Below, in pieces: positions 20,070 through 44,327 of a stretch of DNA of 64,000 nt (position 1 is its first letter; each line of letters starts with the position of its first letter). The stretch is from Phycisphaerales bacterium (lineage in GTDB: Bacteria; Planctomycetota; Phycisphaerae; Phycisphaerales; UBA1924). The notes beneath the pieces are model-generated. The model saw nothing but the letters and a program-made list of their open reading frames with translations. It searched no databases and was not told the DNA's origin. Location: assembly GCA_020831775.1 (NCBI GenBank), contig JAFIFZ010000079.1, positions 62,001-126,000 on the forward strand, in the 5' to 3' direction. A program made the position numbers and the translations under genes.

Positions 20070-21473
20070 TCAGCCGCAGCCTGTGGCAAAGAGCGACAGA
20101 TACTCGAAAAAGTCGTCGGCGTCGATCACGCCGTCGTTGTTGATGTCGGCTTGCGAGTCGCCTGCGGCGAAGAGCTGCAGGAAGAGGAAGAAGTCGTCAG
20201 CGTCGACGACGCCGTCCCCGTTGAGGTCCGCGGGGCAGGGCTCGGGGCAGCCTTCGGCGTTGAACTGCGCGAGCATCTCCCACTTCTCGCTGCGCCCGGC
20301 GTCGTAGTTGAGCGCCCAGATCCCAACGCCCCCGATCCCGCGGCTGCGCGCCAGGTCGAGCTTCAGTCTCGTGCTCGGGGCGTCGTCGGCCCAGCTCTGG
20401 CGGTAGCCGCCGGAGATCGAAGCGAGATGCCAGGGCGTGCTCGACGGCGCGTCCCAGCCCCACCCCGGCTCGGCGAGCGCTCGAGACGCGGCGTAGGTGA
20501 TCGAACCGACATAGCTCTGGACCGATGCCCTGGGCAGCGGGCTGGCGGTGTTCCACCGCTCGCCGTAATAGGGAACGCCGAGCACGATGCGTTCGGGGAA
20601 GTCGGCGATGGCCTGCGCGTACTGGCTGTCCAAGACGCCGGTCAGGCTGATGCCGCTGCCGCCGAGGGGCGCCGTCGGCCCGGTCTGCGTCGAGAACGAT
20701 CCGGAGAAGGCGTAGCCCATGATGAAGACGAGGTCGACGCTGGCAGCGATGTCGCGGAAGTTCCAGTGGCCCCAGTTGTAAGGCGGCGTCGCGATCGAGA
20801 CGGTTGCATCGGGCGAGAGCGTGCGCACGCGAGTTCGCAGGTCCGAGAGGAAGGCGGGCATGAGCGCCGGCCAGCCGTTGGAGACCGAGCCCTCGAAGTC
20901 GATGTTCACGCCGTCGACGCCCGCGACGAAGACGGCCCAGGCGATCTCGCCGAGCAGGCGGTCGCGGGCGGCTGGGCTGTCGAGCACTTCGCGGATGGTC
21001 GTTGGGTTGAATTGCGTGATGACGATCTCGACGCGGACGCCGTGGGACTGCGCCTCGGCGATGGTGTCGGTCCAGGGCCAGCCGACGCTGTTGGTCAGGC
21101 GTCCGTCGGAACGGACGCCGAGGCTGAACATGCCGACATGGGAGAGGTGGTCCCAGCGGATGCCCTGACGGCTGACCCAATAGGGCAGGTAGCCGTAGAC
21201 GATTTCGCAGGGCTCGGGGTTGATCGATCTGAGAACGGATCCACGGGGGGCGTCGGGCGCGGCGATCGCCGCCGGGTCGGTTGTCGCGGCCGCCTCCCGT
21301 TCGGCCGGGGCAATCCGGGCGTCTTGCGACGCCGCGCCGAGACGCGCCGCCTCGTGGGCCTCGTGCACAGATCGATGCTGGGAATCGTCAGACAAACCGG
21401 ATGCCGTCGCGCTGATCGAAAGAACGGCCAGCGTTGATAAACAGCCGATGATCCAACGAAATCCCAAGGACAC
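20070..21473 (-). CDS. Secreted GH18-type (chitinase-like) protein with GC-type dockerin
   Basis: A 467-residue exported protein. The signal peptide is VSLGFRWIIGCLSTLAVLSI. The GH18 TIM barrel runs from about residue 70 to 400. The catalytic strand is VDGVNIDFEG, which keeps the catalytic Glu and the preceding Asp, but has Asn at the middle Asp position of the DGxDxDxE motif, as in YaaH-like members. Others blocks are GYLPYWVSRQGIRWDHLSHV and VLGVPYYGERW. It ends in two calcium loops (DLNGDGVVDADDFF; DINNDGVIDADDFF) and ATGCG. It may hydrolyse GlcNAc polymers, but the YaaH-like motif leaves the substrate open. The GTG at 21473 is chosen because the signal peptide begins there; ATG-like starts upstream add 16 charged residues. 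Confidence 0.82.
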   Translation of the reverse strand: MSLGFRWIIGCLSTLAVLSISATASGLSDDSQHRSVHEAHEAARLGAASQDARIAPAEREAAATTDPAAIAAPDAPRGSVLRSINPEPCEIVYGYLPYWVSRQGIRWDHLSHVGMFSLGVRSDGRLTNSVGWPWTDTIAEAQSHGVRVEIVITQFNPTTIREVLDSPAARDRLLGEIAWAVFVAGVDGVNIDFEGSVSNGWPALMPAFLSDLRTRVRTLSPDATVSIATPPYNWGHWNFRDIAASVDLVFIMGYAFSGSFSTQTGPTAPLGGSGISLTGVLDSQYAQAIADFPERIVLGVPYYGERWNTASPLPRASVQSYVGSITYAASRALAEPGWGWDAPSSTPWHLASISGGYRQSWADDAPSTRLKLDLARSRGIGGVGIWALNYDAGRSEKWEMLAQFNAEGCPEPCPADLNGDGVVDADDFFLFLQLFAAGDSQADINNDGVIDADDFFEYLSLFATGCG

Positions 21474-21598
21474 GACCTGATCTTCGCAGGCTCCCGCGGG
21501 GCGGATCCCGCCCGATCGCAAGTCTCTTGGTGTTCACTGATTTTCGGTCCCGCAACGGAGCGCATCGTGCGATGGCTTTCCGGTGATTCAAGGGGAAA

Positions 21599-22483
21599 AT
21601 GCTTGTGATCCACGCGGGCATCGACATCGGCGGCACAAGCGTCAAGGCGGCCCTGCTCGGGCCCGAAGGCATGCGCACGGGGAGGAGTTCACCCTACCGG
21701 CGTCCTTCGCTTGAGCGGCTGGCTGAGGCGGTTCTCGAAGCGATGAACGGGGCGGGAATCCACCCCGATCGCGGGGCTGCTGTGGTCGGCATCTGCGTGC
21801 CCGGGCGTCTGGATTCGACCGGAACAATTGTTGAGCTCTCGGTCAACCTGCCCTGCCTGAACGGGGTCCGTCCAGCGGAGATCGTCGGCCGTTGCTTTGG
21901 GCAAGGTGCGCAAGCTGCGCAGTATTCGCCCAGGGTCGCGCTGCTGTCCGATGCGGTCGCCGCGGCGATCGGTTCGCACCATGTCGACCCGTCGCGCGGG
22001 CGGCTCGCGGCGATCGTTCTTGGGACCGGGGTCGGGCTGGCGGTGCTCGATGGGGGCGAGCCGGTGACGATCGGGGCGCGGGGGATCGGGCACCTGGGGC
22101 AGTTGGATGTGGGCGTCGAGCCGATGCCGCTGGGGCCCGACGGGGGGCGGGGCGGGCTTGAGGGGCACATCGGGTTGCGTGCGCTGGAGGCGAGGTTCGG
22201 CGAGCGGATCGCCGAGGGGCTGGCGGGGCTGGATGGGGAGGATCCGATCCTGCGTGCGATGGCGAGGGCGTGCCGCATCGTGCACGCGATCTACACGCCC
22301 GACGAGATCCGGCTGCTGGGCGGCGTGGGGATGCTGCTTGAGCCGGTGCTCGGCAAGTTGGAGGGGCTTGTGCGCACGGAGCTGACGGGTGTCGCGCGGA
22401 AGGGATGGAGGATGTCGTGCGCCGACTCTCCATTCCTCGCGGCGATCGGGGCGGCGGTCCATGTCGGGCGGTCGAGGGTGTAG
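21599..22483 (+). CDS. ROK-family sugar kinase-like protein lacking the zinc motif
   Basis: A 294-residue protein with the ROK phosphate-binding start (HAGIDIGGTSVKAALL), the SDAVAAAIGS block holding the catalytic Asp, and the AIVLGTGVGLAVLDGG loop. ROK kinases phosphorylate hexoses such as glucose or N-acetylated amino sugars. The usual zinc-binding CxCGxxGC after GHLG is replaced: GHLGQLDVGVEPMPLGPDGG, then RGGLEGHIG. No Cys remains, though the surrounding LE is kept. It may be a zinc-free variant or have lost kinase activity. AAGGGG lies very close to ATG 21599, so GTG 21605 is an alternative start. It converges with the sugar transporter gene 7 bases after its stop. Confidence 0.75.
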   Translation: MLVIHAGIDIGGTSVKAALLGPEGMRTGRSSPYRRPSLERLAEAVLEAMNGAGIHPDRGAAVVGICVPGRLDSTGTIVELSVNLPCLNGVRPAEIVGRCFGQGAQAAQYSPRVALLSDAVAAAIGSHHVDPSRGRLAAIVLGTGVGLAVLDGGEPVTIGARGIGHLGQLDVGVEPMPLGPDGGRGGLEGHIGLRALEARFGERIAEGLAGLDGEDPILRAMARACRIVHAIYTPDEIRLLGGVGMLLEPVLGKLEGLVRTELTGVARKGWRMSCADSPFLAAIGAAVHVGRSRV

Positions 22484-22490: not shown

Positions 22491-24239
22491 TCAGCCCGGC
22501 TTGGGCGGGACGAGGTCGACGGTCGGTTCGTTGTCCTCCCGGCGGCTGCGGAGTTCGTCTTTGCGGCGTCGGGGCGCCTCGGGCTTCGGGGCCGACTCGT
22601 CGCTCCGGTCTGGGGCGGATTTGCTCACCGGGTTGTCGGTGGCCCTGCCCAGCAGGCAGACGATCAGGGACAACGCCGCGGCGATCATGAACCGCCAAGG
22701 AAAGGCGACCTCGGTCGCGAGGGTCCGCCACGGGTCTGCAAAGGCTGGGGGCAGGCCGGAGGCGAAGTTTCCCAGAGCCCAATTGGCGAACCAGGGCTGG
22801 AGCACGAGCGTCGCGCCGATGCCGACGATGAGGGCCGCGATGACCGATGCGGAACTGCCCCGCTTGGTGCAGATGACGGTGAGGAAGACGGCGACCATCC
22901 CCGCGTAGGCGAAGGCCATGACGCCGAGGGCGAAGTCGATGAGCTGCTCTTCCGAAGACCGCTGCCAGTAGATGCACAGGCCGGCGAACCCGCCGAGCAC
23001 CAGGCCCCAGAAGACGACGCCGAGGCGACCGACGAAGAGGTAGTGCTTCTCGGATCTGTTCCTGGCGATGCGCCTGTAGAAGTCGTTGACGACGGTCGAA
23101 CTCATCGAGTTGAGGCCGGAGTTGAGGCTGCTGAGCCCCGCTGCGAAGAGGCCCGCGAGCATGAGGCCCGTCAGGCCGGCGGGCATCTCGCGCAGGACGA
23201 AGCTGAGGAAGATGCGGGCCGAGTCGAAGACCTCGTAGTCCGGCGCGTTCTCGCCCATGATGTCGGGGCGGTCGTAGAAGATGTACAGCAACAGGCCGAC
23301 GCCCATGAAGACGCCGACGACCGGGATCGCGGCGATGTTGGCGCTGATGACCGACCACGAGCCGCGCGAGGCGGTCTTGCAGGTCAGCATGCGCTGGACC
23401 ATGTCCTGGTCGGTGCCGTAGGCCGCGACGCCCCAGAGCGTGAATGCGAAGATCGAGGCCCAGAGCGTGAAGCTGGAGCCCCAGTCCATGCGGGTGTCAA
23501 AGACGGTGAGCTTGGAAGTCCCTTCCTCGCCGACTCGGGCCTCCCTGAGGGTCGAGACGATCTCGGAAGCGGGCACGGGGATCTGAGAGAACAGGACGAA
23601 GACCGCCGCCCCGATCGCGACCATGAAGACAAGCATCTGGACGACATCGGTCCAGATGACGCTGGCGACGCCCCCGACGAGCGTGTACACGATGCCGACG
23701 ACAACGAGCGCGCCGATCGCCATCAACAGGTGGCTGTCGGGGATCGCCTCTTCGGGCTGAGCGCCGAACATGATCAGGGCCGCGGGGATGGCGACGATGT
23801 AGATCCTCGCGCCCGAGGCCATGATGCGCCCGAGGAGGAAGGCGCCGGAGGTCGCGACGACGCCGGCGGGGCCGCAGCGCTTGCCGATGAGCTCGTAGAC
23901 CGTCGCGACATGGTGGCGGTAGAAGGCGGGGATGAAGAGCAGGCCGATGACGAGGGCCGCGAGGATCATTCCGATGTTGGTCGCGAGGTAGGTGAGGTTG
24001 CCCGCGTAGGCCTGTTGCGGCCCGCCGATGAAGGTCGCGGCCGAGAGGCTGGTGGCAAGCACCGAGACGGCGACGGCCCACACCGGCATCTTCCGACCGC
24101 CGAGGAAGTAGTCCTCGGTGTTGCGGTTCTTGCGCATCGAGAACCAGACGCCGGTCGCGACGAGCACGAGGAAGTAGAGCCCGAGCACGAGAACATCGAG
24201 GATGCCGAAGCCGCCGGGTGTGTCCGCCTGGCCGTCCAT
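22491..24239 (-). CDS. Sodium:solute symporter (SSS family)
   Basis: A 582-residue membrane protein with about 13-14 spans. The family signature region is present: YFLGGRKMPVWAVAVSVLAT followed by SLSAATFIGGPQQAYAGNLT. Later blocks are DVVQMLVFMVAIGAAVFVLF and GLFAAGLSSLNSGLNSMSS. It uses the Na+ gradient to import a small solute. It is the last gene of the operon with murQ, anmK and a hexosaminidase, so an amino sugar or muropeptide fragment is the likely substrate (inference). A basic cytoplasmic tail follows the last span. It starts 21 bases after murQ. Confidence 0.88.
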   Translation of the reverse strand: MDGQADTPGGFGILDVLVLGLYFLVLVATGVWFSMRKNRNTEDYFLGGRKMPVWAVAVSVLATSLSAATFIGGPQQAYAGNLTYLATNIGMILAALVIGLLFIPAFYRHHVATVYELIGKRCGPAGVVATSGAFLLGRIMASGARIYIVAIPAALIMFGAQPEEAIPDSHLLMAIGALVVVGIVYTLVGGVASVIWTDVVQMLVFMVAIGAAVFVLFSQIPVPASEIVSTLREARVGEEGTSKLTVFDTRMDWGSSFTLWASIFAFTLWGVAAYGTDQDMVQRMLTCKTASRGSWSVISANIAAIPVVGVFMGVGLLLYIFYDRPDIMGENAPDYEVFDSARIFLSFVLREMPAGLTGLMLAGLFAAGLSSLNSGLNSMSSTVVNDFYRRIARNRSEKHYLFVGRLGVVFWGLVLGGFAGLCIYWQRSSEEQLIDFALGVMAFAYAGMVAVFLTVICTKRGSSASVIAALIVGIGATLVLQPWFANWALGNFASGLPPAFADPWRTLATEVAFPWRFMIAAALSLIVCLLGRATDNPVSKSAPDRSDESAPKPEAPRRRKDELRSRREDNEPTVDLVPPKPG

Positions 24240-24260
24240 GGTAACTGAGGGTACCTCCGG

Positions 24261-25211
24261 TCAGGGGTCGATGACGCGGTCGAGGCGTCCGCCGGCTGCT
24301 GAAAGGCGCTTCTCGGCGTCGGCACGATCGACGCCGAGCCTGTGCATGACGACCGCGGCCTTGACGCCCCCGCCCGCGAGGTCGAGCAGTTCGAGCGAGC
24401 CGGGGCGGTCGAGGCCTGTGAGCTCGGCGACGATGCGCGCCGCCCGGTCGCGAAGCTTGTCGTTGCTGGCCCGCAAATCGACCATGAGATTCTGATAGAC
24501 GCGTCCGGAACGGACCATGAGCGTGGTGCTGATCATGTTGAGGGCGAGCTTGGTGGCGGTGCCCGCCTTCATGCGAGTCGAGCCGGTGAGCACCTCGGGG
24601 CCGGTAGGGATGACGACGAGCCTGTCGCAGCCCGGGGGTTTTTCTGTAGGTGAGCAGGAGAGCATCGCCGTGAGACAGTTGGGGCAGACGCGTTTGGCGA
24701 TGGCCATCGCGCCGCGGACGAAGGGGGTGGTGCCCCCGGCGGCCAATCCGATCACCGTGTCGCTCGGCGTCAGGGCGAGGGCTTGCAGTTCGGGGAGGGC
24801 GCCCTCGGGCTCGTCTTCCTTGTGCTCGCTGGAGCGTCGGAGGGCCGCGTCGCCCCCGGCGATGATGCCGACGATCCGTCCGGGCTCGACCTGAAAAGTC
24901 GGCGGCGCTTCAGAAGCGTCCAGCACGCCGAGGCGGCCGGAGGTGCCGGCGCCGAGGTAGATGAGCCTGCCGCCGGCGGCAAAGCCGGGCTCTGCGGCTT
25001 CGATCAGGGCCGTGAGCTCGGGCAACGCGAGCTCGAACGCGTCGAGCATGCGTCGGTCTTCATCGTGGATAGCGCGGGCGATCTCGTCGACGGACATCGT
25101 GTGCAGCGAGCGGGTGCGTTCGTTGCGCTGCTCGGCGAGGACATGGGCGCGGTCGGGCGGGATCGACCCGGGAGCCTCTCTCGGTGTGCGCTGTGCCGGA
25201 TCGTCGGTCAT
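24261..25211 (-). CDS. murQ: N-acetylmuramic acid 6-phosphate etherase
   Basis: A 316-residue SIS-domain enzyme that cleaves the lactyl ether of MurNAc-6-P, yielding GlcNAc-6-P and D-lactate. Family blocks are visible: RNERTRSLHTMSVDEI, GRLIYLGAGTSGRLGVLDAS followed by EAPPTF (the Glu is the expected catalytic acid), GIIAGGDAALRRSSEHKEDE, and PEVLTGSTRMKAGTATKLAL. Its ATG overlaps the stop of anmK (ATGA), and AnmK supplies its substrate. It acts in cytoplasmic peptidoglycan recycling. Confidence 0.96.
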   Translation of the reverse strand: MTDDPAQRTPREAPGSIPPDRAHVLAEQRNERTRSLHTMSVDEIARAIHDEDRRMLDAFELALPELTALIEAAEPGFAAGGRLIYLGAGTSGRLGVLDASEAPPTFQVEPGRIVGIIAGGDAALRRSSEHKEDEPEGALPELQALALTPSDTVIGLAAGGTTPFVRGAMAIAKRVCPNCLTAMLSCSPTEKPPGCDRLVVIPTGPEVLTGSTRMKAGTATKLALNMISTTLMVRSGRVYQNLMVDLRASNDKLRDRAARIVAELTGLDRPGSLELLDLAGGGVKAAVVMHRLGVDRADAEKRLSAAGGRLDRVIDP

Positions 25212-26311
25212 GCTGAGGCTCCGGCGGGGCGCGACGGGGCGGGGGTGAGCGAGCCCGCAAGCGGCGGCAGCGGCGAGCCGGTGACCCTCGTCAGCGTGAT
25301 CGGTACGCCGTCGACGGAGAGCGCGCCCAGCACCGCCATCGCCGCCGCTTCACGATAGGTCGCGGGGAGTCCGGCGCTGTCTGTCGGGCCGATGGTCGCT
25401 CCGGCCAGTCGCTTGCTGATGGCGGCGACGAGGGCGCAGTTGCGCGAGCCGCCGCCCGCCAGCAGCAGACGCGTGCACCCCGCCAACCTCGACGCGACGG
25501 CGCCCCCCACCGCTTCGGCGGCCGTCGCGCACAGATCGCTCGGCGAGAGCCCGCCCTTCCATCGCTCGACCCAATGCGAGGCTTCGTCGCTGCTGCCGAG
25601 CGACCGACCGGCGCGGCTCTGGCCCTCCAGCAGTGCGGCGAGATCTCGCAACGCTTCCGGATCGGCCGCGCCCTTCAGGGCTTCGGCGCCGCCTTCGTCG
25701 AACGGGCGTTCAAGCGCGGCCCTCGCCGCCGCGTCGAGCACCTGGTTGCAGGCGCAGATGTCGAAGCCCTCGATGCTTTGCACGCCCGAAGCCCGGGATC
25801 CGAGCAGCGTCGCGTTGGCGAAGCCACCGAGGTTGAGCACCGCCAGCGGCGACTCGTCGGCGAAGAAAACAAAGTCGGCCAACGGCGTGATCGGCGCCCC
25901 CTGCCCGCCCGAGGCGAGATCGGCCCCGCGCAGGTCGGTCAGCACAGGCGACCCCGTCGCGCTGGCGATGATTGCGGGATCGATCGCCTGCCAGCTCAGG
26001 GGCGGATCGTGAAGCACCGTCTGGCCGTGCGCGACGATCAGATCGGCACGCGCCCCATCGAGCAGTTGCAGCGCGAGGTCGGCGTGCAGGCGCGAGAAGT
26101 CGTGCAGGGCCTGGACGATCGACCGGGCGGTCATCGCTTCGCCATGCGCAAGCCTGCGCAGCGGCTCGGCGCACGAACCGAGACCGACGCTCGCGCCCCG
26201 AACGAACGACGCCCGCATGGTCAGGCCGGAACCCTCGATGCGCACGATCGAGCCGTCCAGCCCGTCGAGGCTGGTGCCGGACATGAAGCCGAGGACGGTG
26301 CGGGCGCTCAC
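25208..26311 (-). CDS. anmK: Anhydro-N-acetylmuramic acid kinase
   Basis: A 367-residue kinase that opens and phosphorylates 1,6-anhydro-MurNAc to MurNAc-6-P. The start VSARTVLGFMSGTSLDGLDG carries the family phosphate loop (GxMSGTSxDGxD). Further blocks are IVAHGQTVLHDP, LNLGGFANATLL, the FDICACNQVLDAAAR region (usually FDTGPGN, so partly changed), and LLLAGGGSRN. GTG at 26311 is the start: it overlaps the TGA of the hexosaminidase gene (GTGA) and places MSGTS at residue 10. Both the start and stop overlap neighbours, so it is tightly coupled in the recycling operon. Confidence 0.92.
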   Translation of the reverse strand: MSARTVLGFMSGTSLDGLDGSIVRIEGSGLTMRASFVRGASVGLGSCAEPLRRLAHGEAMTARSIVQALHDFSRLHADLALQLLDGARADLIVAHGQTVLHDPPLSWQAIDPAIIASATGSPVLTDLRGADLASGGQGAPITPLADFVFFADESPLAVLNLGGFANATLLGSRASGVQSIEGFDICACNQVLDAAARAALERPFDEGGAEALKGAADPEALRDLAALLEGQSRAGRSLGSSDEASHWVERWKGGLSPSDLCATAAEAVGGAVASRLAGCTRLLLAGGGSRNCALVAAISKRLAGATIGPTDSAGLPATYREAAAMAVLGALSVDGVPITLTRVTGSPLPPLAGSLTPAPSRPAGASA

Positions 26312-28239
26312 GCGGAGACCTCCCCCAGCAGACGCCGGTAGTGGCCGAGGCTTTCGGCGAGCCCGCCCTCGCGGCTTCGGATCCGCCAGAGGCGGGCGTG
26401 GTCGTGCATGATGTGCCTGAGCAAGCGTGCTGTGGCGCTGGCGGCTTGCCCGCCCGTGTTCCGGCTCTCCCGTGCAATCGCGAGATCCGCCGCGAAGCTC
26501 GCAACATCGCACGCGTGCGACAGCTCATCGTGCAGCAACGAGCCCGCTTTGCCGGGGATCGATTCACGAAGCGCTTCGATGCGTTCGCGCACCGCTTGCC
26601 ACGCAGCCCCGTGGTCGAGCCTCAGCCCCTCGCGGGCCGGGAAGAGCACGCTGAAGAGGGCCGAGGCGTTGTGCAGGCGTGTCGGGCCGGCGTCGCCTGG
26701 GACGCCCGAGATTTGTCTGAGGTCGAGATCGGCGTCGCCGAAGGCGTCGAGCCACTCGGCGGTTCCAGGCGCGCAGAGCGCGTGCAAGGATGCCGCTTCG
26801 TGTTCGAGCGGATCGTCGTCGAGCCCGCCCCTCCACGCGGCCTGCGCGCCCTGCGCGATCGCACGCAGCGCCACCGGCCAGACCTGGTGGTGCCCCGTGT
26901 CGCCCCAGTCGGTGATGAGGCAGCCGCTCGCGCCCGCGTCGAGCCCCTGCGCCGCCGCGGCGTGCAGGTTCGCCCGGCGCTCGCTCGCCCGCCCGGTGAT
27001 CGACCGCCACGAGCTCGTGCCCGGGCAGACCCAGCCCTCCATGCCGCGGGCTCGCGCCTCGCGCAGCGGGCCGGCAAAGTCCGCGTCGGGCTCGTAGTTC
27101 CAGACCAGGGCGATCGCCTCTTTGGGAAGGAGGTCGAGCACGCGCGGGTGCTCGGCCGCGATGTCGGCCCAGAACGCCGGGCGTCGCCCGCGATCGGTCG
27201 CCAGCTTGCAGACCTGCGCGACGAACCTCGCGTAGACCTCCGCCTTGCCCTCGCGATCGACCGCTTCTCTCGAGCGGCCCTGACCGATGTCGTAGGTCTC
27301 GTCGCACCCGATGTTCACGAGCGACGACGAGAAGCAGGGCAAGAGGTCGTCAAGCATCTTCTCGACGAACCGAATCGAGCCCGGGTCGATCGGGCAGAGG
27401 CTGAACGGTCCCGAGCGCGGCACGCCCGCGAACGACCAGTCCCCGTGCGTCTCGGCGAGCGGGGCGAATCGTTTGTGCACCAGCCATGGCTTGAGGTGGC
27501 CGAAGCAGTTCTGGTTTGCCGCGAGCTCGACGCCGCGGCTCTTGCAGTGCGCGTCGTGGCGGCGCACCTCCTCGGGCGTCATCGGCGAGACGCCCGCCCA
27601 GACCTCCGGCGCCCACGAGTAGGCGAAGGCGTGCTCGGTGTAGAGCTGGAGGTGGTTGATCTTCAGCGAGGCGAGCAGGTCGACCGAGTCGAAGAGCTCT
27701 CGCATCGTCGGGACGCGGCAGCGTGAGACATCGAGCATGACGCCGCGGACGGCAAAGGCCGGCGCGTCCTCGATCTCGACGCACGGGACCTCGGGGCCGA
27801 CGGCACGGAGGATCTGCGCGAGCGTGCGGAGGGCGTTGCGGACGCCCGCGTCGGTCGGTGCGTCGATGGAGACGCCGTGCGGGTCGATGCGGAGGGTGTA
27901 GGCCTCGGGGGATCGGCTGGCGGATCGGGTGGCACGGGTCTCCGACCTGTGCCCACTACCCCCGCTTGTGGCACGGGCGTCTCGCCCGTGGCTACTCGAT
28001 CTCTCGGATACCGGGCTCGAACCACTGGCGAAAGAGCCGCCAGTGCCACAGATTTGGATGTCGCCTCGGCCGTGCGTTGCGATGAGCGAGGTCGGCAGCC
28101 CGGCCGCGAGTGCGTTTCCTTCGGAATCGATCGGCGCCCGCAACGGCAGGTCGAGCGTCACGCTCCCTCCGAGCGGTCTGATCGACCTCGGTCTGGGCAA
28201 GAGCGGGATAGAGCTCGCATCGCGTCGCACGCAGCACAC
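26308..28239 (-). CDS. GH20-type beta-N-acetylhexosaminidase
   Basis: A 643-residue glycosidase without a signal peptide. The catalytic Asp-Glu pair of family GH20 is in LVNIGCDETYDIG; the barrel start is RGVMLDVSRCRVPTMRELFD and INHLQLYTEHAFAYSW. It probably removes terminal GlcNAc from muropeptides or chitin fragments in the cytoplasm, feeding anmK and murQ next to it. Two parts are foreign: residues about 64-110 (low-complexity Ser/Arg, with SHGRDARAT) and about 592-603 (NTGGQAASATA) are translations of the palindromic repeat family at 9581. Start is GTG 28239; GTG 28230 has a better ribosome-binding site (AAGGTG) and is possible. The stop overlaps anmK. Confidence 0.85.
   Translation of the reverse strand: MCCVRRDASSIPLLPRPRSIRPLGGSVTLDLPLRAPIDSEGNALAAGLPTSLIATHGRGDIQICGTGGSFASGSSPVSERSSSHGRDARATSGGSGHRSETRATRSASRSPEAYTLRIDPHGVSIDAPTDAGVRNALRTLAQILRAVGPEVPCVEIEDAPAFAVRGVMLDVSRCRVPTMRELFDSVDLLASLKINHLQLYTEHAFAYSWAPEVWAGVSPMTPEEVRRHDAHCKSRGVELAANQNCFGHLKPWLVHKRFAPLAETHGDWSFAGVPRSGPFSLCPIDPGSIRFVEKMLDDLLPCFSSSLVNIGCDETYDIGQGRSREAVDREGKAEVYARFVAQVCKLATDRGRRPAFWADIAAEHPRVLDLLPKEAIALVWNYEPDADFAGPLREARARGMEGWVCPGTSSWRSITGRASERRANLHAAAAQGLDAGASGCLITDWGDTGHHQVWPVALRAIAQGAQAAWRGGLDDDPLEHEAASLHALCAPGTAEWLDAFGDADLDLRQISGVPGDAGPTRLHNASALFSVLFPAREGLRLDHGAAWQAVRERIEALRESIPGKAGSLLHDELSHACDVASFAADLAIARESRNTGGQAASATARLLRHIMHDHARLWRIRSREGGLAESLGHYRRLLGEVSA
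26429..26461. repeat. Palindromic repeat fragment inside the GH20 gene (3' copy)
   Basis: Positions 26430-26460 match 9580-9610 at 28 of 31 bases. It is translated in frame on the minus strand as NTGGQAASATA. Only one arm of the element is recognisable here. Confidence 0.8.
27928..28053. repeat. Palindromic repeat cluster inside the GH20 gene (5' copy)
   Basis: It comprises GGTGGCACGGG (from 27929), GTGGCACGGGCG/CGCCCGTGG (27968-27992) and the inverse of element A at 28021-28052 (ending CCGCCAGTGCCACAG). It adds about 45 low-complexity residues between the N-terminal region and the EAYTLRIDPHGVSI block of the enzyme without breaking the frame. Confidence 0.8.
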
Positions 28240-28248
28240 CTTACCCGC

Positions 28249-29535
28249 TCAGACCTTCAGGTAGATCTTCCGCCGGTGCAGCCACCAGACGAAGCACCAG
28301 CAAAGCAGCATGTACCCAATCGCGTGGGCCCACGCCCCGGCGTGGTCGCCGATGAGCCTGGCCCGCTCGGTGTCGCCCAGCGGCCTCGAGAGCAGGTGCA
28401 CCGAGAGGTTCGCCCCCCACTCTCTCAGCCACGCCAAGACGCCACCGATCAGCGAGCCCGCGTGCCCGTTGGGATGGACGATCTGCCAGCGGGTGAAGAC
28501 CAGCCGCCAGAGCATCTCGACAGTGAAGTAGAGCGCGATGGCGTTGAGGCCGAAGATCTGCATCCAGCGGCACTTGGTGACCCGCCACACATCGACGAGC
28601 GCGTACATCACGCCCAGCAGGCAGGCGCCCGTGCCCGCGGCCAGCAGCACATACGACGAGGTGAAGTAGTCCTTGCTGTAGGGCAGGCGGACGCGGTCGA
28701 TGAACGAGGCGAGGCCGGGCGCGCTCTCGCGCAGGCCGGTCCATGGTTGGAATTGCCAGAGCCAGCTTGCGCCCCAGAAGAACAGGCCGAAGGCGATCAG
28801 CCGCCCGGCCGTAGAGATCGATCGCCCGCCCTTGCGCAGGAGATCGCCTGCGAAGGCGCCGAGCAGGACGGTCGCAGCGGCCGGCAGCGCCTGCTGGAAC
28901 CCGCCGAACCAGCCGAGCTGCGCGTTCAGCCAGCGGTGCACGCTCTCCTGCTGCGTCCAGACGATTTCGCCGGTCGGCGGGTGCGGGATGAAGCGCAGGA
29001 TCGCCCACTTGGCCAACAGCACGATCACGATGAACGCGACGCGGACCGCGACCGGCGACTGGTAGAACACGACGCCGAGGATGTACCCAGCGCCGATCAG
29101 CGGCAGGATGTCCCAGTGCAGGAAGGCCCGCCAGCCGATCGGATCGCCCCGGTTGGCGATCGTCGCCATCCAGATCAGGATCCCCAGCAAATAGAGCACC
29201 AGCCCGCGCTTGAAGGCGATGAGCACCCGCTCCGTCGGCGTGCGGCTCTGCCCCCGGCCCGAGTGCATCGAGAACGGGATCGCCACGCCGACAATGAACA
29301 GGAACCACGGGAACACAAGGTCCGTCACCGTCGCGCCGTGGTTACCGTCGTTCCAGCCGAGGTGGAACATCTGCTGGGGAAAGACGCTCTTGTCCCAGGT
29401 GACATTGACCAGGAGCATCGTGGCGATCACCAGGCCCCTGAAGGCGTCGAGCGAGGCGAGGCGGGGGGACTCGCCGAGGGCGGGCGGGCGAAGGCGGGCT
29501 TCGCCCGTGTCGTGCTGGACCGGTACCTCGTTCAC
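28249..29535 (-). CDS. HGSNAT-like membrane acetyltransferase
   Basis: A 428-residue protein with about ten membrane spans, of the heparan-alpha-glucosaminide N-acetyltransferase/YeiB-like group. The typical start of the first span is RLASLDAFRGLVIATMLLVN, followed by FPWFLFIVGVAIPFSMHSG, LHWDILPLIGAGYILGVVF and the late IFGLNAIALYFTVEMLW. Human HGSNAT transfers acetyl from cytosolic acetyl-CoA across a membrane to terminal glucosamine. Here the enzyme may acetylate glucosamine residues during amino-sugar recovery (inference). The GTG start at 29535 overlaps the TGA of lysA (GTGA), and 9 bases separate its stop from the hexosaminidase start. Confidence 0.82.
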   Translation of the reverse strand: MNEVPVQHDTGEARLRPPALGESPRLASLDAFRGLVIATMLLVNVTWDKSVFPQQMFHLGWNDGNHGATVTDLVFPWFLFIVGVAIPFSMHSGRGQSRTPTERVLIAFKRGLVLYLLGILIWMATIANRGDPIGWRAFLHWDILPLIGAGYILGVVFYQSPVAVRVAFIVIVLLAKWAILRFIPHPPTGEIVWTQQESVHRWLNAQLGWFGGFQQALPAAATVLLGAFAGDLLRKGGRSISTAGRLIAFGLFFWGASWLWQFQPWTGLRESAPGLASFIDRVRLPYSKDYFTSSYVLLAAGTGACLLGVMYALVDVWRVTKCRWMQIFGLNAIALYFTVEMLWRLVFTRWQIVHPNGHAGSLIGGVLAWLREWGANLSVHLLSRPLGDTERARLIGDHAGAWAHAIGYMLLCWCFVWWLHRRKIYLKV

Positions 29536-30914
29536 GCCGTTGCCTCGGCGGGTTGCGGCCCGCAGGCCTCGGGTCCGAGGAGCATCGCCGCGACGCTCTG
29601 GCGGGCTCGGATCGTGCGCCAACTGTCTTTATCGACGAGCACCTCGGCGGGGAGGGGGTGGTCGTTGTAGGTGCTCGCCATGGACATGCCGTAGGCCCCG
29701 GCGCTGAAGACCGCAAGCAGATCGCCTCGTTCGACAGGCGGCATCGGCCAGTCTCGGATGAACGCGTCGGCCGATTCGCAGACCGGGCCGACGACATGCG
29801 ACGGAACGAGGCCCGGGCCTTCGGGCTTCTTGCTTCGCCGGGTTGGCGCCTGCCCCTCGCCGACGCGGACGGGCCAGACGAAGTGGAACGCGTCGTAGAG
29901 CGCGGGGCGGATCAACGCGTTCATCCCCGCGTCGCAGACGACGAAGCGCCCGCCCGAGGTTTCCTTGACATACTCGACGCGCACGAGCAGCACGCCCGCG
30001 TTGGCGATCAGCGTGCGACCGGGCTCCATCAGGATCTTCACGCCACGCCCGACGAGGGGCAGCAGCATCGGGACGATGCGTTCGGCGTACGAGGCGTACG
30101 AGGGCGTCGAGCCCGTCTCGTAGTCCGCCCCGATCCCGCCCCCGATGTTCAGGCGGTCGACCCGGTGGCCGTTGCGCTCGATCTCGTCGATCCGGACGAG
30201 GATGCGTTCGAGGGCCTCGGTGTAGGGGTCGGGCGAGTAGATCGGCGAGCCCAGGTGCATGTGCAGCCCGCGGAGGTTGAGGTGGGGCGAGTCGCCGAAG
30301 CGGTCGAAGGCCGCGGGGGCTCGCGCAAGGTCGATCCCGAACTTGTTCTCCCGCTTGCCGGTGGTGGTGTGCCTGTGGGTCCTGGCGTCGACATCCGGGT
30401 TGACGCGGAGGGTCGCCGAAGCGACGACGCCCACCTCCCTCGCGGCGTCTTCGAGCACCTCCAGCTCCTGCTCGCTCTCGACATTGAACAGGCCGATCGG
30501 GCCGCGCCCCTCCGGCCCCAACCCGTTCACCTTCACGCCGCTCTTGGCCAGCGGGCTGTAGCGTCCGTCTAAGGCGGCGAGCATCTCATCGCGGCGTTTG
30601 CCGACCCCCGCGAAGACGACCCCCGACATCGGCGCCCCCGATAGCCAGACGCGTTCGAGCTCCCCCACCGACACGACATCGAACCCGGCGCCCGCCCCAG
30701 CGACGAGGCGGCAGATCTCGGGGTTGCCGCAGGATTTAACGGCAAAGCAGATCGCCGGGTCCACCGGGGCGAAGGCTTCGGCCAGCCTCCGGTAGTGCCC
30801 GAGGAGGGTGGCCGACGAGTAGACGAATGTCGGTGTCCCGACCTTTGAGGCGATCTTGTCGACGGGCACGCCCTCGGCGTGAAGGCGTCCGTTGGTGTAC
30901 GAAAAGTCGTCCAT
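29532..30914 (-). CDS. lysA: Diaminopimelate decarboxylase
   Basis: A 460-residue fold type III PLP decarboxylase converting meso-diaminopimelate to L-lysine. The PLP lysine lies in ICFAVKSCGNPEIC, HMHLGS and NIGGGIG bind the cofactor, MEPGRTLIANAG follows, the active-site CESAD is in VVGPVCESADAF, and AGAYGMSMASTYN closes the site. It is the first gene of the six-gene recycling operon, and its stop overlaps the acetyltransferase start. Placement with anmK/murQ suggests use of diaminopimelate released from recycled muropeptides. TTATAGAA lies 53 bases upstream on its strand. Confidence 0.94.
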   Translation of the reverse strand: MDDFSYTNGRLHAEGVPVDKIASKVGTPTFVYSSATLLGHYRRLAEAFAPVDPAICFAVKSCGNPEICRLVAGAGAGFDVVSVGELERVWLSGAPMSGVVFAGVGKRRDEMLAALDGRYSPLAKSGVKVNGLGPEGRGPIGLFNVESEQELEVLEDAAREVGVVASATLRVNPDVDARTHRHTTTGKRENKFGIDLARAPAAFDRFGDSPHLNLRGLHMHLGSPIYSPDPYTEALERILVRIDEIERNGHRVDRLNIGGGIGADYETGSTPSYASYAERIVPMLLPLVGRGVKILMEPGRTLIANAGVLLVRVEYVKETSGGRFVVCDAGMNALIRPALYDAFHFVWPVRVGEGQAPTRRSKKPEGPGLVPSHVVGPVCESADAFIRDWPMPPVERGDLLAVFSAGAYGMSMASTYNDHPLPAEVLVDKDSWRTIRARQSVAAMLLGPEACGPQPAEATA

Positions 30915-31077: not shown

Positions 31078-32136
31078 ATGCTCTGCAATACCGCCCGATC
31101 GATCCTGATGCTCGCGATGGTCTGCCTGATTGGCGTGGGGTGCGCCCCGCAGCAGCGGGCGGTCGAGGCGGGGCCGCGGATCGGCGACCCGGCGCCGCGG
31201 GTGGGCGATGAGATCATGGTCGCCGGGCGGATGTTCCACACCGGGGCGCCGGTGGTGCTCTGGTTCGACCCCGGGGGGTACGACGCGTACCGGGTGGAGC
31301 GTCGGTTCGTCCCGCTCGACCAGGCGTCGTGGGCGGAGTCGAGCTCGGTGCTGCGGTCGCCCAACCGCTACAGCACGCGCCGCGTCGGCATGAGCCCCGA
31401 GGACCAGGAACGCACCCGGCACGGCAACTGGACGCTCGACGATGTGCGCACGCATGTCGATCAGTTCGTGATCCATTACGATGTCTGCGGCGTCAGCCGC
31501 CGGTGCTTCCGTGTGCTGCACGATCTGCGGGGGCTGTCGGTGCACTTCATGCTGGATATCGACGGGACGATCTACCAGACGCTGGATGTGCAGGAACGGG
31601 CGTGGCACGCGGGCACGGCCAACGACCGCTCGGTGGGCATCGAGATCGCCAACATGGGCGCGTACCGCGACCCCGACGACCGCACCCTCCGCCAGTGGTA
31701 CGCGCGTGACGAAGAGGGCACTCGGATCACGATCCCGGGTTCGCTCGGCGACGGGGGCGTGCGCACGCCGGGGTTTGTGGGCAGGCCCTCGCGCCCCGAG
31801 CCGGTCAGCGGCGAGATCCACGGGACCACGCTGCATCAATACGACCTGACCGACGAGCAGTACGAGTCGCTCATCAAGCTCACCGCGGCGCTGCACCTGG
31901 CGCTGCCGGGGATCGAGCTCGACTACCCGCGCGAGAGCGACGGCTCGCAGGGGACGCGCGAGCTGACGCAGGAGGAGTACGACAGCTTCGGTGGCCTGAT
32001 CGGTCATTATCACATCACGCGGGGCAAGATCGATCCGGGCCCGGCGTTCGACTGGGACCGCGTGGTCGAGGGGGCGCGGGCGATCGTCTCTGATCGGGCC
32101 CGCGAGGGCGCCCGCTATGTGCGGGGCGGGCGTTGA
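31078..32136 (+). CDS. N-acetylmuramoyl-L-alanine amidase lipoprotein (Amidase_2)
   Basis: A 352-residue exported lipoprotein (lipobox IGVGC, Cys22). The amidase domain of AmpD/PGRP type covers about residues 110-330. Zinc ligands and catalytic residues are visible: His in QFVIHYDVCG, and the C-terminal set GHYHITRGKIDPGPAFDW (His, Lys, Asp as in AmpD). FMLDIDGTIYQTLDVQERAW and NDRSVGIEIANMG match the fold core. It hydrolyses the bond between MurNAc and the stem peptide. An extra insertion before the last ligands (residues 210-260) is longer than in AmpD. AGAAGG lies 8 bases before ATG 31078. Divergent from lysA, and followed after 10 bases by the GH38 gene. Confidence 0.88.
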   Translation: MLCNTARSILMLAMVCLIGVGCAPQQRAVEAGPRIGDPAPRVGDEIMVAGRMFHTGAPVVLWFDPGGYDAYRVERRFVPLDQASWAESSSVLRSPNRYSTRRVGMSPEDQERTRHGNWTLDDVRTHVDQFVIHYDVCGVSRRCFRVLHDLRGLSVHFMLDIDGTIYQTLDVQERAWHAGTANDRSVGIEIANMGAYRDPDDRTLRQWYARDEEGTRITIPGSLGDGGVRTPGFVGRPSRPEPVSGEIHGTTLHQYDLTDEQYESLIKLTAALHLALPGIELDYPRESDGSQGTRELTQEEYDSFGGLIGHYHITRGKIDPGPAFDWDRVVEGARAIVSDRAREGARYVRGGR

Positions 32137-32146
32137 GCACAGCATC

Positions 32147-35100
32147 ATGACACCCCCCACCGAACTGCAACGCTGGATCGGGCGCTTCGAGGCGTACCTG
32201 CGTGAGGTGATCTCGCCCGCGGTGTACGCCGACCGCGAGCCGTTGCGGGTTGGGGCACATCTGTGCGAGGGTTCTCCATCGCCGGCGGATGCCGAGAGGT
32301 TTGACTTTGAGCCCGTCGAGCCGGGCTGGCGCTGGGGCCCGGCGTGGCGGACCTGCTGGTTCAGGCTCGAAGGCGTCGTGCCCGAGCGGTTCGACGCGGG
32401 AACCGGGCGGACGGTGGTGCTGCGCTTCAGCACGGGGACGGAGGGGCTGGTCTATCTCGACGGCAGGCCCGTGCAGGGCGTGGATGTGAACCGCGATCGC
32501 GTGCGCCTTGAAGGCGTTTCGCCCGGAAAGCCGGTCAGCGCCCTGGTCGAATCGGTCTGCGTGCATCCGTGGGGCGCGAGCGTCTTTGACTGGGACACCG
32601 CCGAGACGAAGGCGCGCTGGACGGACCGCGAACCGGGGAGGCTGGAGGTTTCGGAGCTGGCGCTGCTCGACGAGGGCGTGCTGCGCCTGTCGCGGGCGTT
32701 CGGCTTTGCGATCGCGCTGCTGAAGGAGTTGCCCGAGCGGACGCCGAGGGCTGGAGAGCTCTGCCGCGCGTTGCGTGAGGCGGTGACGACGCTCGACGAC
32801 ACCGACATCGCCTCGGGCGCCGGTGACGCCGCCGCTCACATCGAATCCGCGCTGTCGCGCGGTGCATCGCCCTCGGCGACCGAGTGCGTCGCGGTCGGGC
32901 ACGCGCACATCGACACGGCCTGGCTCTGGACGCTCGAAGAGAGCCGGCGCAAGTGCCTGCGTTCCTTCAGCAATGTGCTGCGCCTGATGGAAGTCGACCG
33001 GGCGTTCTGCTTCCTCTGCTCGCAGGCGCAGCACTACGCGTGGGTCGAGGAGGACTCGCCGGAGCTGTTTTCGCAGATCGCCCGGCGCCTCAGGGAAGGT
33101 CGATGGGAGCCGGGCGGGGGCATGTGGGTCGAGCCGGACACCAACGCCCCCAGCGGCGAATCGCTGATCCGCCAGCTCCAGCACGGTATCGCGTACTGGA
33201 CGGACCGGTTCGGCGAGATGGGCGGGCAGCGCCACCTGTACCTGCCCGACACCTTCGGATTTGCGGCGTGCTTGCCGCAGATCATGAAGCTCGGCGGGCT
33301 GGACACCTTCATCACCAACAAGCTGCACTGGAACGACACGACGGAGTTCCCGCACACCACCTTCCGCTGGGTCGGGCTCGGCGGGCATGGTGTGCTGGCG
33401 CACGTGACGCCCGGGGGCGATTACAACTCAACGCTCTCGCCCAAGGAGCTGCGCAAGGGCGAGGCGAGAGCGGCAGAGCAGCTCGACGGCGCCGCGGACC
33501 TCTGGCTGCAGCCGTTCGGCTTTGGCGACGGGGGCGGCGGGCCGACCGAGGAGATGCTCGGCAACGCCCGACTCGCGGCGGCGTGCGAAGGCCTGCCCCG
33601 CGTGAGGTTCGGCACAGCCCGGGAGCTTTGCAAAGACCTGCACGACCACGCCGAGGCGATCGAAAACACGGGGCGGGCGCTGCCGGTCTGGCGGGGCGAG
33701 CTCGACCTTGAGTACCACCGCGGCACGCTGACGAGCCAGCGCGAGATTAAATGGTTCAATCGGGCGTGCGAGGATTCGCTGCGCCTCGCAGAACTCGTCG
33801 TGTTCTTTGGACCCGAGCCGCTGGAGCAGCAAGACGCCAAGCGGCTGCACGCCCGGCTGGACAAGCTGTGGAAGATGCTGCTGCTCAACCAGTTCCACGA
33901 CATCCTGCCCGGTTCGTCGATCGCGCAGGTGAACGAACGGGCGATGGATGATCTCGAAGCGGTGCTCGACGGGGCGGAGACGATCATCGATGAACATGCG
34001 CCGGCGTGGGCCGCGAAGGTCGGCGCCGAACGAGCTTACTTCTGCCCCGCGAGTCAGGCGTGCGTGCTCGATCGGAAGGCCCCTCCGCCGCTTTCGGCCT
34101 TTGCGCCCACGGAGAAGGCGAGAACCAGAACCGTCCGGCTCGATCATGACGCGCGTGAGATCGAGAACGAGCTGGTCAAGGTCGTGTTCGACAAGTGCGG
34201 GCGCATCATCGAGTTCCGCAACAAACAATACGGCTTCGACCTATGCCCGGACGGCCCGACACGATTCCTTGAACACTTCGAAGACCGGCCTCGCACCTAC
34301 GACGCGTGGGAGCTGGAAGAGAACTACACCGACAAACTGATCTGGACAAACGATCAACCAGCAAAGTGTTCTAGCCACATCTTTAACGCCCAGGCAGGTT
34401 TGATTTTCGAGCACACACTCCCCTGCGGCTCGTTTGTCTGCGAGTGTTTCACGCTTCTCTCTGGATTACCGATCTTGGAGATCGAAACGACCGTCGTTTG
34501 GAAGGCATCGGCCCGCGTGCTCCGCGTGCGGATGCCTACCTCACTCGAAGGCGCGTCGGTCCGTCACGGCACGCAGTTCGGCGTGCTCAACGATGAAGCG
34601 ACACGCAACACACCGCGCGACAGAGCCCGGTTCGAACGCTGCGGCCACCGCTTCAGCGAGCTGCGTCAGACCGGACGCGTCTTCACGCTCCTCGACGACG
34701 GGACGATCCTCGGACGATCGGCCGATGGATCGGAGCTCGGCCTCACGCTGCTCCGCGCCTCGAACTGGCCCGACCCCAACGCCGACCGGGGCGAGTACGT
34801 CTTCCGAACCGGGCTTTGGCTGCACGACGGCAGCGCACCCACAACGCGGGTCGCCGAGCGGTTCGCCAGACCGATGCAAGACTTTCTGGATAACTCGCCG
34901 TACAGGTTGAGCGGCGCGTCGTGGGCGCCCTTCTCGATTCAGGCCGTCAGCGTCGAGGTCGCCGCAGCGACCGGATTGCCCGACGGCACGCTCCGCCTGC
35001 GCCTCGTCGAGACCGAGGGCCTGGAACAGCCCTGCAAGATCGAGTGGAACATCCCCGCATCGGAGGTCGAGGGGGTCGACCTGCTCGACCGACCCTCCCC

Positions 35101-35188
35101 CGTCGACCACCTCCAGCACGACGGCGACGAGACGAGCTTCATGATCAAGCCGTTCCAGATCGTGACGCTGAAAGTCGTTCGCGGCTGA
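32147..35188 (+). CDS. GH38 alpha-mannosidase
   Basis: A 1013-residue glycosidase, usual length for the family. The N-terminal beta domain covers about residues 1-240. The catalytic domain starts with AVGHAHIDTAWLWTLEESRR (zinc ligands His and Asp); the nucleophile region is YLPDTFGFAACLPQIMKLGG; LNQFHDILPGSSI is the helical-domain motif. The C-terminal beta domains include ENELVKVVFDKCGRIIEF. It removes alpha-linked mannose from glycans or mannosylglycerate-like compounds. No signal peptide, so cytoplasmic. It starts 10 bases after the amidase stop with only a weak ribosome-binding site, which suggests readthrough translation in one operon. Confidence 0.92.
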   Translation: MTPPTELQRWIGRFEAYLREVISPAVYADREPLRVGAHLCEGSPSPADAERFDFEPVEPGWRWGPAWRTCWFRLEGVVPERFDAGTGRTVVLRFSTGTEGLVYLDGRPVQGVDVNRDRVRLEGVSPGKPVSALVESVCVHPWGASVFDWDTAETKARWTDREPGRLEVSELALLDEGVLRLSRAFGFAIALLKELPERTPRAGELCRALREAVTTLDDTDIASGAGDAAAHIESALSRGASPSATECVAVGHAHIDTAWLWTLEESRRKCLRSFSNVLRLMEVDRAFCFLCSQAQHYAWVEEDSPELFSQIARRLREGRWEPGGGMWVEPDTNAPSGESLIRQLQHGIAYWTDRFGEMGGQRHLYLPDTFGFAACLPQIMKLGGLDTFITNKLHWNDTTEFPHTTFRWVGLGGHGVLAHVTPGGDYNSTLSPKELRKGEARAAEQLDGAADLWLQPFGFGDGGGGPTEEMLGNARLAAACEGLPRVRFGTARELCKDLHDHAEAIENTGRALPVWRGELDLEYHRGTLTSQREIKWFNRACEDSLRLAELVVFFGPEPLEQQDAKRLHARLDKLWKMLLLNQFHDILPGSSIAQVNERAMDDLEAVLDGAETIIDEHAPAWAAKVGAERAYFCPASQACVLDRKAPPPLSAFAPTEKARTRTVRLDHDAREIENELVKVVFDKCGRIIEFRNKQYGFDLCPDGPTRFLEHFEDRPRTYDAWELEENYTDKLIWTNDQPAKCSSHIFNAQAGLIFEHTLPCGSFVCECFTLLSGLPILEIETTVVWKASARVLRVRMPTSLEGASVRHGTQFGVLNDEATRNTPRDRARFERCGHRFSELRQTGRVFTLLDDGTILGRSADGSELGLTLLRASNWPDPNADRGEYVFRTGLWLHDGSAPTTRVAERFARPMQDFLDNSPYRLSGASWAPFSIQAVSVEVAAATGLPDGTLRLRLVETEGLEQPCKIEWNIPASEVEGVDLLDRPSPVDHLQHDGDETSFMIKPFQIVTLKVVRG

Positions 35189-36903: not shown

Positions 36904-37715
36904 CCCTTCACCGCCCCGGCAAACAGGCTCGGCTTGAGCCAGCGTTCCATCGCGAGGAAGAAGACGACGATCGGCACCAGCGCCAGCACGCTGCCCGCGT
37001 ACGCGTAGCGCGGGTTGGTGGCGAACTGGCCCAGCAGCTCGTTGATCGCCAACGGCAGGGTGTACTTTTCGGGGCTGTTGAGCACGACAAGCGGCCAGAG
37101 CAGGTCGGACCACGCCGCGATGATGCTGAAGAGCGCGAGCGTTGCGAGCGTCGGGGCTGAGAGCGGGATCATGACATTCCACCAGGTGCGCAAGGGCCCG
37201 GCGCCGTCGATGCGCGCCGCCTCTTCCAGTTCCCATGGCACCTGCAAGAACGCCTGGCGGCAGAGGAAGATCCCGAACGCCGAGACGCCGAAGGGCACGA
37301 CGAGCGCCGCCAGCGTGTCGAACATCCCCATCCCCGCGACGATGCGGAAGAGGGGGACGACGATGACCTGCTCGGGGATCATCGTCGTCGCGAGGATGAG
37401 GACGAAGCAGATGTCGCGCCCGCGGAAGCTCATCCGGGCGAGGGGGTAGGCCGCGAGGGCCGCGAGGAGCACATTGAGCCCGGCGCGGGAGAAGGTGACG
37501 AGCACGCTGTTGAGCGTGGCCGAGGCGAGGCCGCCCTCGGCCCAGGCGCCGCGGAAGTTGTTCAGCGTGAAGCCGCCCCCGACGGAGCGGAGGTCGGCGT
37601 CGGCGGGCTGGACCGCGATCATCGCCAGCCAGATCGCCGGGACGATCGCCAGCGCCACCAACGCAAGGGCGCAAACGATGCGGAGGGCGACGAGCCAAGG
37701 GGGCGTGCGGCTCAC
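36900..37715 (-). CDS. Carbohydrate ABC transporter permease (MalG type)
   Basis: A 271-residue inner-membrane permease with six predicted spans (LVALRIVCALALVALAIVPA; VLVTFSRAGLNVLLAALAAY; ICFVLILATTMIPEQVIVVP). The EAA motif that contacts the ATPase is EEAARIDGAGPLRTWWNVMI. It pairs with the MalF-type permease upstream to import a sugar or oligosaccharide. The start is GTG 37715, overlapping the stop of the previous gene (GTGA); the long open frame upstream is not coding. No ATPase gene lies in the operon. Confidence 0.93.
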   Translation of the reverse strand: MSRTPPWLVALRIVCALALVALAIVPAIWLAMIAVQPADADLRSVGGGFTLNNFRGAWAEGGLASATLNSVLVTFSRAGLNVLLAALAAYPLARMSFRGRDICFVLILATTMIPEQVIVVPLFRIVAGMGMFDTLAALVVPFGVSAFGIFLCRQAFLQVPWELEEAARIDGAGPLRTWWNVMIPLSAPTLATLALFSIIAAWSDLLWPLVVLNSPEKYTLPLAINELLGQFATNPRYAYAGSVLALVPIVVFFLAMERWLKPSLFAGAVKG

Positions 37716-40041: not shown

Positions 40042-40046
40042 CGTGC

Positions 40047-42139: not shown

Positions 42140-42176
42140 GGTCACCAATCCCTCCCGCCCCAATTACGGAGCGGGA

Positions 42177-42190
42177 GAGCAATTTAGCTC
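42177..42190 (-). promoter_or_regulatory. Possible operator of the sugar operon
   Basis: GAGCAATTTAGCTC is an AT-centred inverted repeat (GAGC/GCTC) 38 bases upstream of the regulator's ATG, in the only gap available for the operon's promoter (42140-42200). Confidence 0.35.
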
Positions 42191-42200
42191 GTTCCGAGGC

Positions 42201-44263: not shown

Positions 44264-44319
44264 CGGTCGTGTTGCTCCGGGTGCCGCTGGGGGCTCTGGG
44301 GGGCAGAAGACTGTGAAAC

Positions 44320-44327
44320 TTCTATAA
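44320..44327 (-). promoter_or_regulatory. TTATAGAA motif upstream of the glycosidase gene
   Basis: TTATAGAA on the coding (minus) strand, 57 bases before ATG 44263. Same octamer as at 30966, 49476, 52645 and 55801. Confidence 0.4.

Follow-up and report, generated by a model that had tools for sequence, protein, structure and literature searches.

How might a bacterium recover the sugars of its own peptidoglycan without the permease AmpG? The question is raised by a six-gene operon of a Phycisphaerales bacterium, lying at positions 22491-30914 (minus strand) of the 64-kb stretch of contig JAFIFZ010000079.1 that was analysed here (the window). The genome carrying this window (G000) is a metagenome-assembled genome (MAG) of 3.55 Mb in 84 contigs, 95% complete. 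From the open reading frames and the sequence, the operon consists of lysA, a nagX/HGSNAT-like gene, a GH20 beta-hexosaminidase gene, anmK, murQ and the gene of a sodium:solute symporter (SSS). We read it as an AmpG-independent salvage route for peptidoglycan sugars, with import by the symporter, a cytoplasmic GH20 and the AnmK/MurQ pair, and give this reading a probability of roughly 0.6. Its enzymes are ordinary and its layout unusual, AnmK-MurQ recycling being combined with a probable Na+ symporter for AmpG and a GH20 for NagZ. Planctomycete walls were long disputed, and wall turnover in these bacteria is hardly known.

The operon and its conserved core

The first gene, lysA, codes for a diaminopimelate decarboxylase (29532-30914; TIGR01048, 398.9 bits, cut-off 297.9) and overlaps by GTGA with the gene of a NagX/HGSNAT-like membrane acetyltransferase (28249-29535, 428 aa from a GTG start at 29535; HGSNAT_cat PF07786, 50.1 bits, cut-off 22). 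After a gap of 9 bases follows the GH20 gene (26308-28239; PF00728, 55.2 bits, cut-off 22.3, and also PF02838), which shares a second GTGA overlap with anmK, coding for an anhydro-N-acetylmuramic acid kinase (25208-26311, 367 aa from a GTG start at 26311; PF03702, 189.1 bits, cut-off 24). The junction of anmK and murQ is an ATGA overlap, murQ coding for the N-acetylmuramic acid (MurNAc) 6-phosphate etherase (24261-25211; PRK05441, 350.9 bits, cut-off 168; TIGR00274, 307.9 bits, cut-off 302), and 21 bases separate it from the SiaT-like SSS gene (22491-24239; SSF PF00474, 122.8 bits, cut-off 22.8). A lipoprotein N-acetylmuramoyl-L-alanine amidase (Amidase_2 by Pfam) is encoded divergently on the plus strand at 31078-32136, 163 bases from lysA. 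An earlier, sequence-only reading had described six codirectional genes with these overlaps and gaps and the divergent amidase, and both descriptions agree with our reading of the sequence and with Pfam and NCBIfam. No sigma-70-like promoter was recognised when the operon was scanned, a result that is not used as evidence.

A profile search for AnmK (PF03702) in the genomes of 121 relatives gave 85 matches above the cut-off, and the surroundings of all 85 loci were read (the window and 84 other stretches). Matches under the cut-off in G028 and G048 were left out, the G028 stretch being without AnmK by our own profile, as were neighbour matches below 40 bits (below 100 bits in the final tally). 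Contig ends truncate many of the loci, so that the linkage counts are lower bounds. The conserved unit is SSS-GH20-AnmK-MurQ, not the whole six-gene operon. An SSS gene on the same strand is present in 34 of the 85 loci, distributed by family as 25/48 in f1, 5/5 in f4, 4/4 in f5 and none in f2 (0/14) or f6 (0/14), while MurQ is linked in 56 loci, GH20 in 31, the lipoprotein amidase in five and NagX in four. The core recurs in three families of the order (f1, f4 and f5) and in two others, f17 and f25, that do not belong to it. Outside the order, a search of 343 genomes of the phylum, with 20 stretches around its matches read, identified SSS-GH20-AnmK-MurQ in five f17 genomes (G345, G215, G261, G373 and G397) and SSS-AnmK-MurQ in G159 and G136. 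This recurrence across families and beyond the order indicates that the arrangement is more than chance, and as regards these four genes the earlier idea of a peptidoglycan recycling operon is well supported. The full order that the sequence-only reading had proposed to look for in other Planctomycetes is present in G000, G001 and, as far as its contig reaches, G002.

The part of that idea which is not supported is the role given to LysA, namely that its presence in the operon would allow the diaminopimelate of muropeptides to be reused. LysA converts diaminopimelate to lysine, and would thus divert it rather than return it to the wall. A genome search with TIGR01048 found one full LysA in G000, the operon copy, so that diaminopimelate recycling is not supported; the second match is a 663-aa frame of 114 bits that we read as an arginine decarboxylase. 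LysA is linked to AnmK in seven of the 85 loci (G055 has it on the opposite strand, the other six on the same one), its linkage needs five changes on the AnmK tree, and the core is kept in f1 genomes with only weak LysA-family matches, for example G004, G008, G057, G058 and G061. LysA was therefore rejected as a part of a route for recycling diaminopimelate, and lysA is probably a passenger, an ordinary biosynthetic gene on a shared transcript in this genus.

A symporter and a hexosaminidase as proposed replacements of AmpG and NagZ

TIGR00901, which we take to be the model covering AmpG, yielded no candidate when G000, with its completeness of 95%, was searched. Among the 121 genomes it matches 22, eight of them above the cut-off and 12 at 320 bits or more, and all 12 belong to f2 and f6, the families without a linked SSS. 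In three f6 genomes (G097, G106 and G112) the AmpG gene lies divergent from anmK, 73, 73 and 77 bases away, so that AmpG holds in one family the neighbourhood that the SSS holds elsewhere. The contrast between SSS and AmpG has a Fisher p of 0.0013, a value that ignores descent and overstates it.

By sequence, the closest solved protein to the symporter is SiaT (5nv9, E 9.3e-42), the next reaching E 9.2e-30. SiaT of Proteus mirabilis binds the carboxylate of sialic acid through Ser60, Thr63 and Arg135 (PMC5931594). Ser60 is kept in all 35 operon-linked SSS proteins and Thr63 in 33 of them. In addition, two arginines of the third helix, Arg138 and Arg145, are invariant in the same 35 proteins within a GRxxxSGAR-like signature (23805-23828, minus strand, in the window). 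Of the 25 rows in the control set, two are unlinked orthologues (G019_C1 and G010_C439, above 700 bits) and a third is too short for a judgement; both arginines together occur in none of the 22 that remain. Since anhydro-N-acetylmuramic acid (anhydroMurNAc) also has a carboxylate, the conserved residues fit an acidic-sugar substrate, without proving it. More distant relatives of the symporter (420-444 bits) adjoin a GH3 gene in all five loci examined (L291-L295), whose products carry the KHFPGxG motif in four cases and the full NagZ signature, by our own pattern, in none. We propose that the SSS is a Na+-coupled importer of anhydroMurNAc, or of its disaccharide with N-acetylglucosamine (GlcNAc), in the place of AmpG.

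The GH20 enzyme would be a cytoplasmic stand-in for NagZ. No PF00933 match, and thus no GH3 enzyme of the NagZ type, was found in G000. The Asp313-Glu314 pair of the window GH20 is invariant in 23 of 23 aligned sequences, and the protein is without an export signal, its hydropathy being 0.74 vs 2.48 for the lipoprotein amidase; in the 21 clustered GH20s tested, no segment at the N-terminus reaches a hydropathy of 2.0. Its predicted structure (mean predicted local distance difference test 84.3) is closest in fold to streptococcal GH20C/GcnA, with Z from 34.0 to 32.4 over the nine best entries, 487-511 residues and 16-17% identity. Across the f1 genomes, GH20 is found in 38 of 73 and a NagZ-signature GH3 in 15 of 73, never both in one genome. 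The NagZ count leaves out six of the 21 f1 genomes with a GH3, which on reading were without the NagZ signature (G020, G023, G049, G052, G055 and G056), and the GH20 count includes G052 from our own profile, PF00728 having missed it. The exclusion has a Fisher p of 2e-6, ignoring descent; independent pairs on the AnmK tree were too few for a test. Ten AnmK loci contain a NagZ-signature gene inside the cluster, nine of them in the order AnmK-MurQ-SSS-NagZ, and SSS and NagZ stand side by side, by match coordinates, in G018, G028, G029 and G033. GH20 and NagZ each occur beside the same three genes, as SSS-GH20-AnmK-MurQ or as AnmK-MurQ-SSS-NagZ, and this swap points to the same job for both enzymes, a shared role that it supports moderately.

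Source, use and alternative fates of the sugars

The catalytic aspartate of AnmK is present in the window protein, Asp184 corresponding to Asp182 of the Pseudomonas aeruginosa enzyme. For the step after MurQ, the usual deacetylase NagA was not found above the cut-off in G000 (best TIGR00221 match 29.1 bits, cut-off 225.65). Encoded at 47360-49375 on the minus strand, 16 kb beyond the operon and not a member of it, is a protein of 671 aa in which NagB is fused to a PIG-L de-N-acetylase (PRK02122, 992 bits, cut-off 384). We propose that this fusion uses GlcNAc-6-phosphate in place of NagA and NagB, with the PIG-L domain as the presumed deacetylase of this sugar. The genes near it at 37712-47289 code for a sugar ABC transporter (permease and binding protein), a GntR/LacI-type regulator, a NAGPA phosphodiester glycosidase and two sugar-metabolism enzymes, and look like an amino-sugar operon.

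Candidates for the supply of anhydroMurNAc ends are encoded by three plus-strand genes in a row (50589-55726), all coding for GHL10 glycosidase-like proteins (PF02638). Two match Cwp19, namely those at 50589-52097 (5oq2, E 1.5e-10) and 54509-55726 (5oq2, E 2.5e-14), and the one between them, at 52491-54368, carries a dockerin-type domain, with no Cwp19 match reported. DigH is also a GHL10 protein. Cwp19 was shown to be active as a lytic transglycosylase, and the activity is ascribed to the GHL10 domain (PMC6016235); DigH, a denuded-glycan hydrolase, is described as able to release anhydro ends (PMC12288456). Judged by this relationship, the GHL10 proteins of the window may be lytic transglycosylases.

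The remaining proteins around the core are less constant. The NagX-like protein falls far under the NagX equivalog cut-off (NF046061, 75.6 bits vs 480), while its His58 aligns with His297 of HGSNAT and this acetyl-carrying histidine is kept in 4/4 cases. NagX has been proposed, in the relevant passages, to acetylate glucosamine and is described there as distantly related to Tannerella MurT (PMC9007349). With linkage in only four of the 85 loci, we judge the NagX-like protein to be accessory, perhaps re-acetylating glucosamine ends. The N-terminus of the amidase matches what we take to be the lipobox pattern and looks like a lipoprotein signal; its AmpD equivalog score, 50.2, is under the cut-off of 143. 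The enzyme is proposed to remove peptides in the periplasm. Directly after it, at 32117-35188, lies a GH38 alpha-mannosidase gene, found near the cluster also in G001 and G055. On the other side, convergent with the SSS gene and ending 7 bases from it, is a plus-strand gene for a ROK-family protein (21599-22483), a neighbour absent from the sequence-only reading; the protein is without the zinc motif, is a possible amino-sugar kinase, and has counterparts near the cluster in G001, G052, L036, L041 and L046. Beyond it, a GH18-family protein (20070-21521) has an EF-hand-like C-terminus and no DxxDxDxE motif, and is possibly not a catalytic chitinase.

The route proposed here, whose substrates, transport direction, coupling and sequence of steps are all inferred, would begin in the periplasm. 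There, peptide-free anhydroMurNAc or GlcNAc-anhydroMurNAc would be set free by the lipoprotein amidase together with a lytic transglycosylase, for which a GHL10 protein of the window is one possibility. Uptake of this acidic sugar through the symporter would be coupled to Na+, and in the cytoplasm its GlcNAc would be removed by the GH20, which is the job of NagZ elsewhere. AnmK would then make MurNAc-6-phosphate and MurQ GlcNAc-6-phosphate, which the PIG-L/NagB fusion would feed into glucosamine-6-phosphate and fructose-6-phosphate, while free GlcNAc could be phosphorylated by the ROK kinase. NagX would act as an accessory, and LysA would ride along as a lysine gene. A broader proposal is that Planctomycetota evolved a Na+-driven symporter for anhydro-muramic sugars, a new SSS subfamily marked by the GRxxxSGAR-like signature, which displaced AmpG and travels in a cassette with an interchangeable cytoplasmic GH20 or NagZ beside AnmK-MurQ, the stems being removed outside and only sugars imported; to us its chances look about even.

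A number of observations weigh against such a salvage route. No same-strand SSS was found in 51 of the 85 AnmK loci, some of them cut by contig ends, and the SSS/AmpG contrast follows family lines and thus rests on few events. Likewise, the GH20/NagZ pattern needs only three switches on the AnmK tree, of which the supported branches force one (the NagZ group). In the symporter, the column of the SiaT salt-bridge residue Arg135 is occupied by Ala or Ser in the operon-linked proteins, Arg138 and Arg145 lying about one helical turn off, and Gln82 is not kept, being Asn in 23 of 35. The fold comparison also barely separates SiaT (Z 41.8, root-mean-square deviation 2.5, 463 residues aligned) from CHT1, a choline transporter (Z 40.6), and the sugar ABC transporter at 37712-40041 is a possible alternative importer. 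In AnmK, the residues directly following the catalytic Asp, GPG in the P. aeruginosa enzyme, are CAC in most members of f1, f4, f5 and f2, though not in most of f6. Finally, no SLT was found in G000 (the lytic transglycosylase families MltA, MltB, SpoIID and RlpA were not searched for), and MltG/YceG was missing from 120 of the 121 genomes, G000 among them, which leaves the source of anhydroMurNAc to the candidate GHL10 proteins or to wall debris from outside. The genome with the sole MltG match is 79% complete, and the match may stem from contamination.

This last point bears on a different use of the same genes and chemistry, the scavenging of foreign peptidoglycan debris as food rather than salvage from the cell's own wall. 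The lack of SLT and MltG in G000, the GH18 and dockerin/GHL10 proteins of the window and the NagB/PIG-L fusion, which points to catabolism, would suit such a habit, whereas the cell's own wall could be the target of the lipoprotein amidase, which is intact, and of the GHL10 proteins, and nothing resembling outer-membrane transport was seen in the operon; we hold it possible but rather doubtful. The presence of GH20, ROK, GH38 and GH18 genes could also be taken as a locus for degrading N-glycans or chitin oligosaccharides, in which the SSS would import chitobiose, GlcNAc or sialic acid. GH38 and GH18 do flank the operon, SiaT is the nearest relative of the SSS, NagX is reported as frequent in chitin operons (PMC9007349), and ROK and GH38 genes are reported from the locus of Streptococcus pneumoniae GH20C, the closest fold to the window GH20 (PMC5215778). 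However, GH38 is near AnmK only in G000, G001 and G055 among the 85 loci and GH18 only in G000, unlike AnmK and MurQ, which are constant partners across families; moreover, the window GH18 is without the motif given above, and sister genomes have NagZ-signature enzymes in the position that GH20 has here. We regard a glycan-degradation locus as improbable. Least credible of all is import of the MurNAc sugar by the NagX-like protein, as proposed for Tannerella MurT, with the SSS carrying something else: NagX is described as distantly related to TfMurT (PMC9007349), but it is linked in four of the 85 loci vs 34 for the SSS, and its acetyl-carrying histidine is retained throughout. AmpG-independent salvage of wall sugars is the reading that we prefer.

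Other neighbours of AnmK were also inspected. In 13 of 14 f2 loci AnmK adjoins cluster c9, at first sight a new partner; it was dropped, its translation resembling a shadow frame on the antisense strand and matching nothing in Pfam or NCBIfam. No family match was obtained for clusters c32 and L170:7383-8420. A BioF/Kbl-like enzyme is encoded near eight of the 85 loci and a diaminopentanoate-dehydrogenase-like one near five, both 3' of murQ in several f1 genomes (L125, L126, L152, L112, L116 and others); no link of these genes to the wall was found.

Comparison with known systems

Among the papers searched by title and abstract, none was found to deal with an SSS symporter that takes part in recycling wall sugars, or with recycling in members of the Phycisphaerae. 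If the proposed route is correct, it represents another case, after YejBEF-YepA, of AmpG replaced by a transporter of another class, and a GH20 performing the work of NagZ. It also names GHL10 proteins as lytic transglycosylase candidates in a lineage where MltG is nearly absent from the genomes searched.

As in recycling of the Escherichia coli type (AmpG, NagZ, AmpD, AnmK, MurQ and NagA), AnmK and MurQ are present, here with overlapping genes, and the expected product is the same, GlcNAc-6-phosphate. The difference is that G000 has no AmpG, NagZ/GH3 or NagA above cut-off, their likely places being taken by the SSS, the GH20 and NagB/PIG-L. The YejBEF-YepA system of Agrobacterium offers a parallel in an AmpG-less bacterium that uses another transporter class for wall fragments; that system is an ABC transporter for muropeptides (PMC9790009), whereas here a member of a Na+ symporter family stands in an operon with sugar enzymes. 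The MurT-MurK-MurQ system of Tannerella forsythia likewise combines a NagX/MurT-like membrane protein and a kinase with MurQ, but its kinase is the MurNAc kinase MurK, with supply from outside, and not AnmK, and neither an SSS nor a GH20 appears in the passages on Tannerella (PMC9007349). The GH20 has its closest fold in streptococcal GH20C/GcnA, from which it differs in its low identity and in its partners, the S. pneumoniae gene being linked to N-glycan genes (PMC5215778). The symporter resembles SiaT (PMC5931594) as its closest solved sequence relative, with Ser60 and Thr63 kept and basic residues on helix 3, and differs from it in that Arg135 and Gln82 are not in place, two arginines stand in the GRxxxSGAR-like signature and the gene is linked to AnmK and MurQ. 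The transporter is the interesting part of this locus, and its assignment is the claim worth testing.

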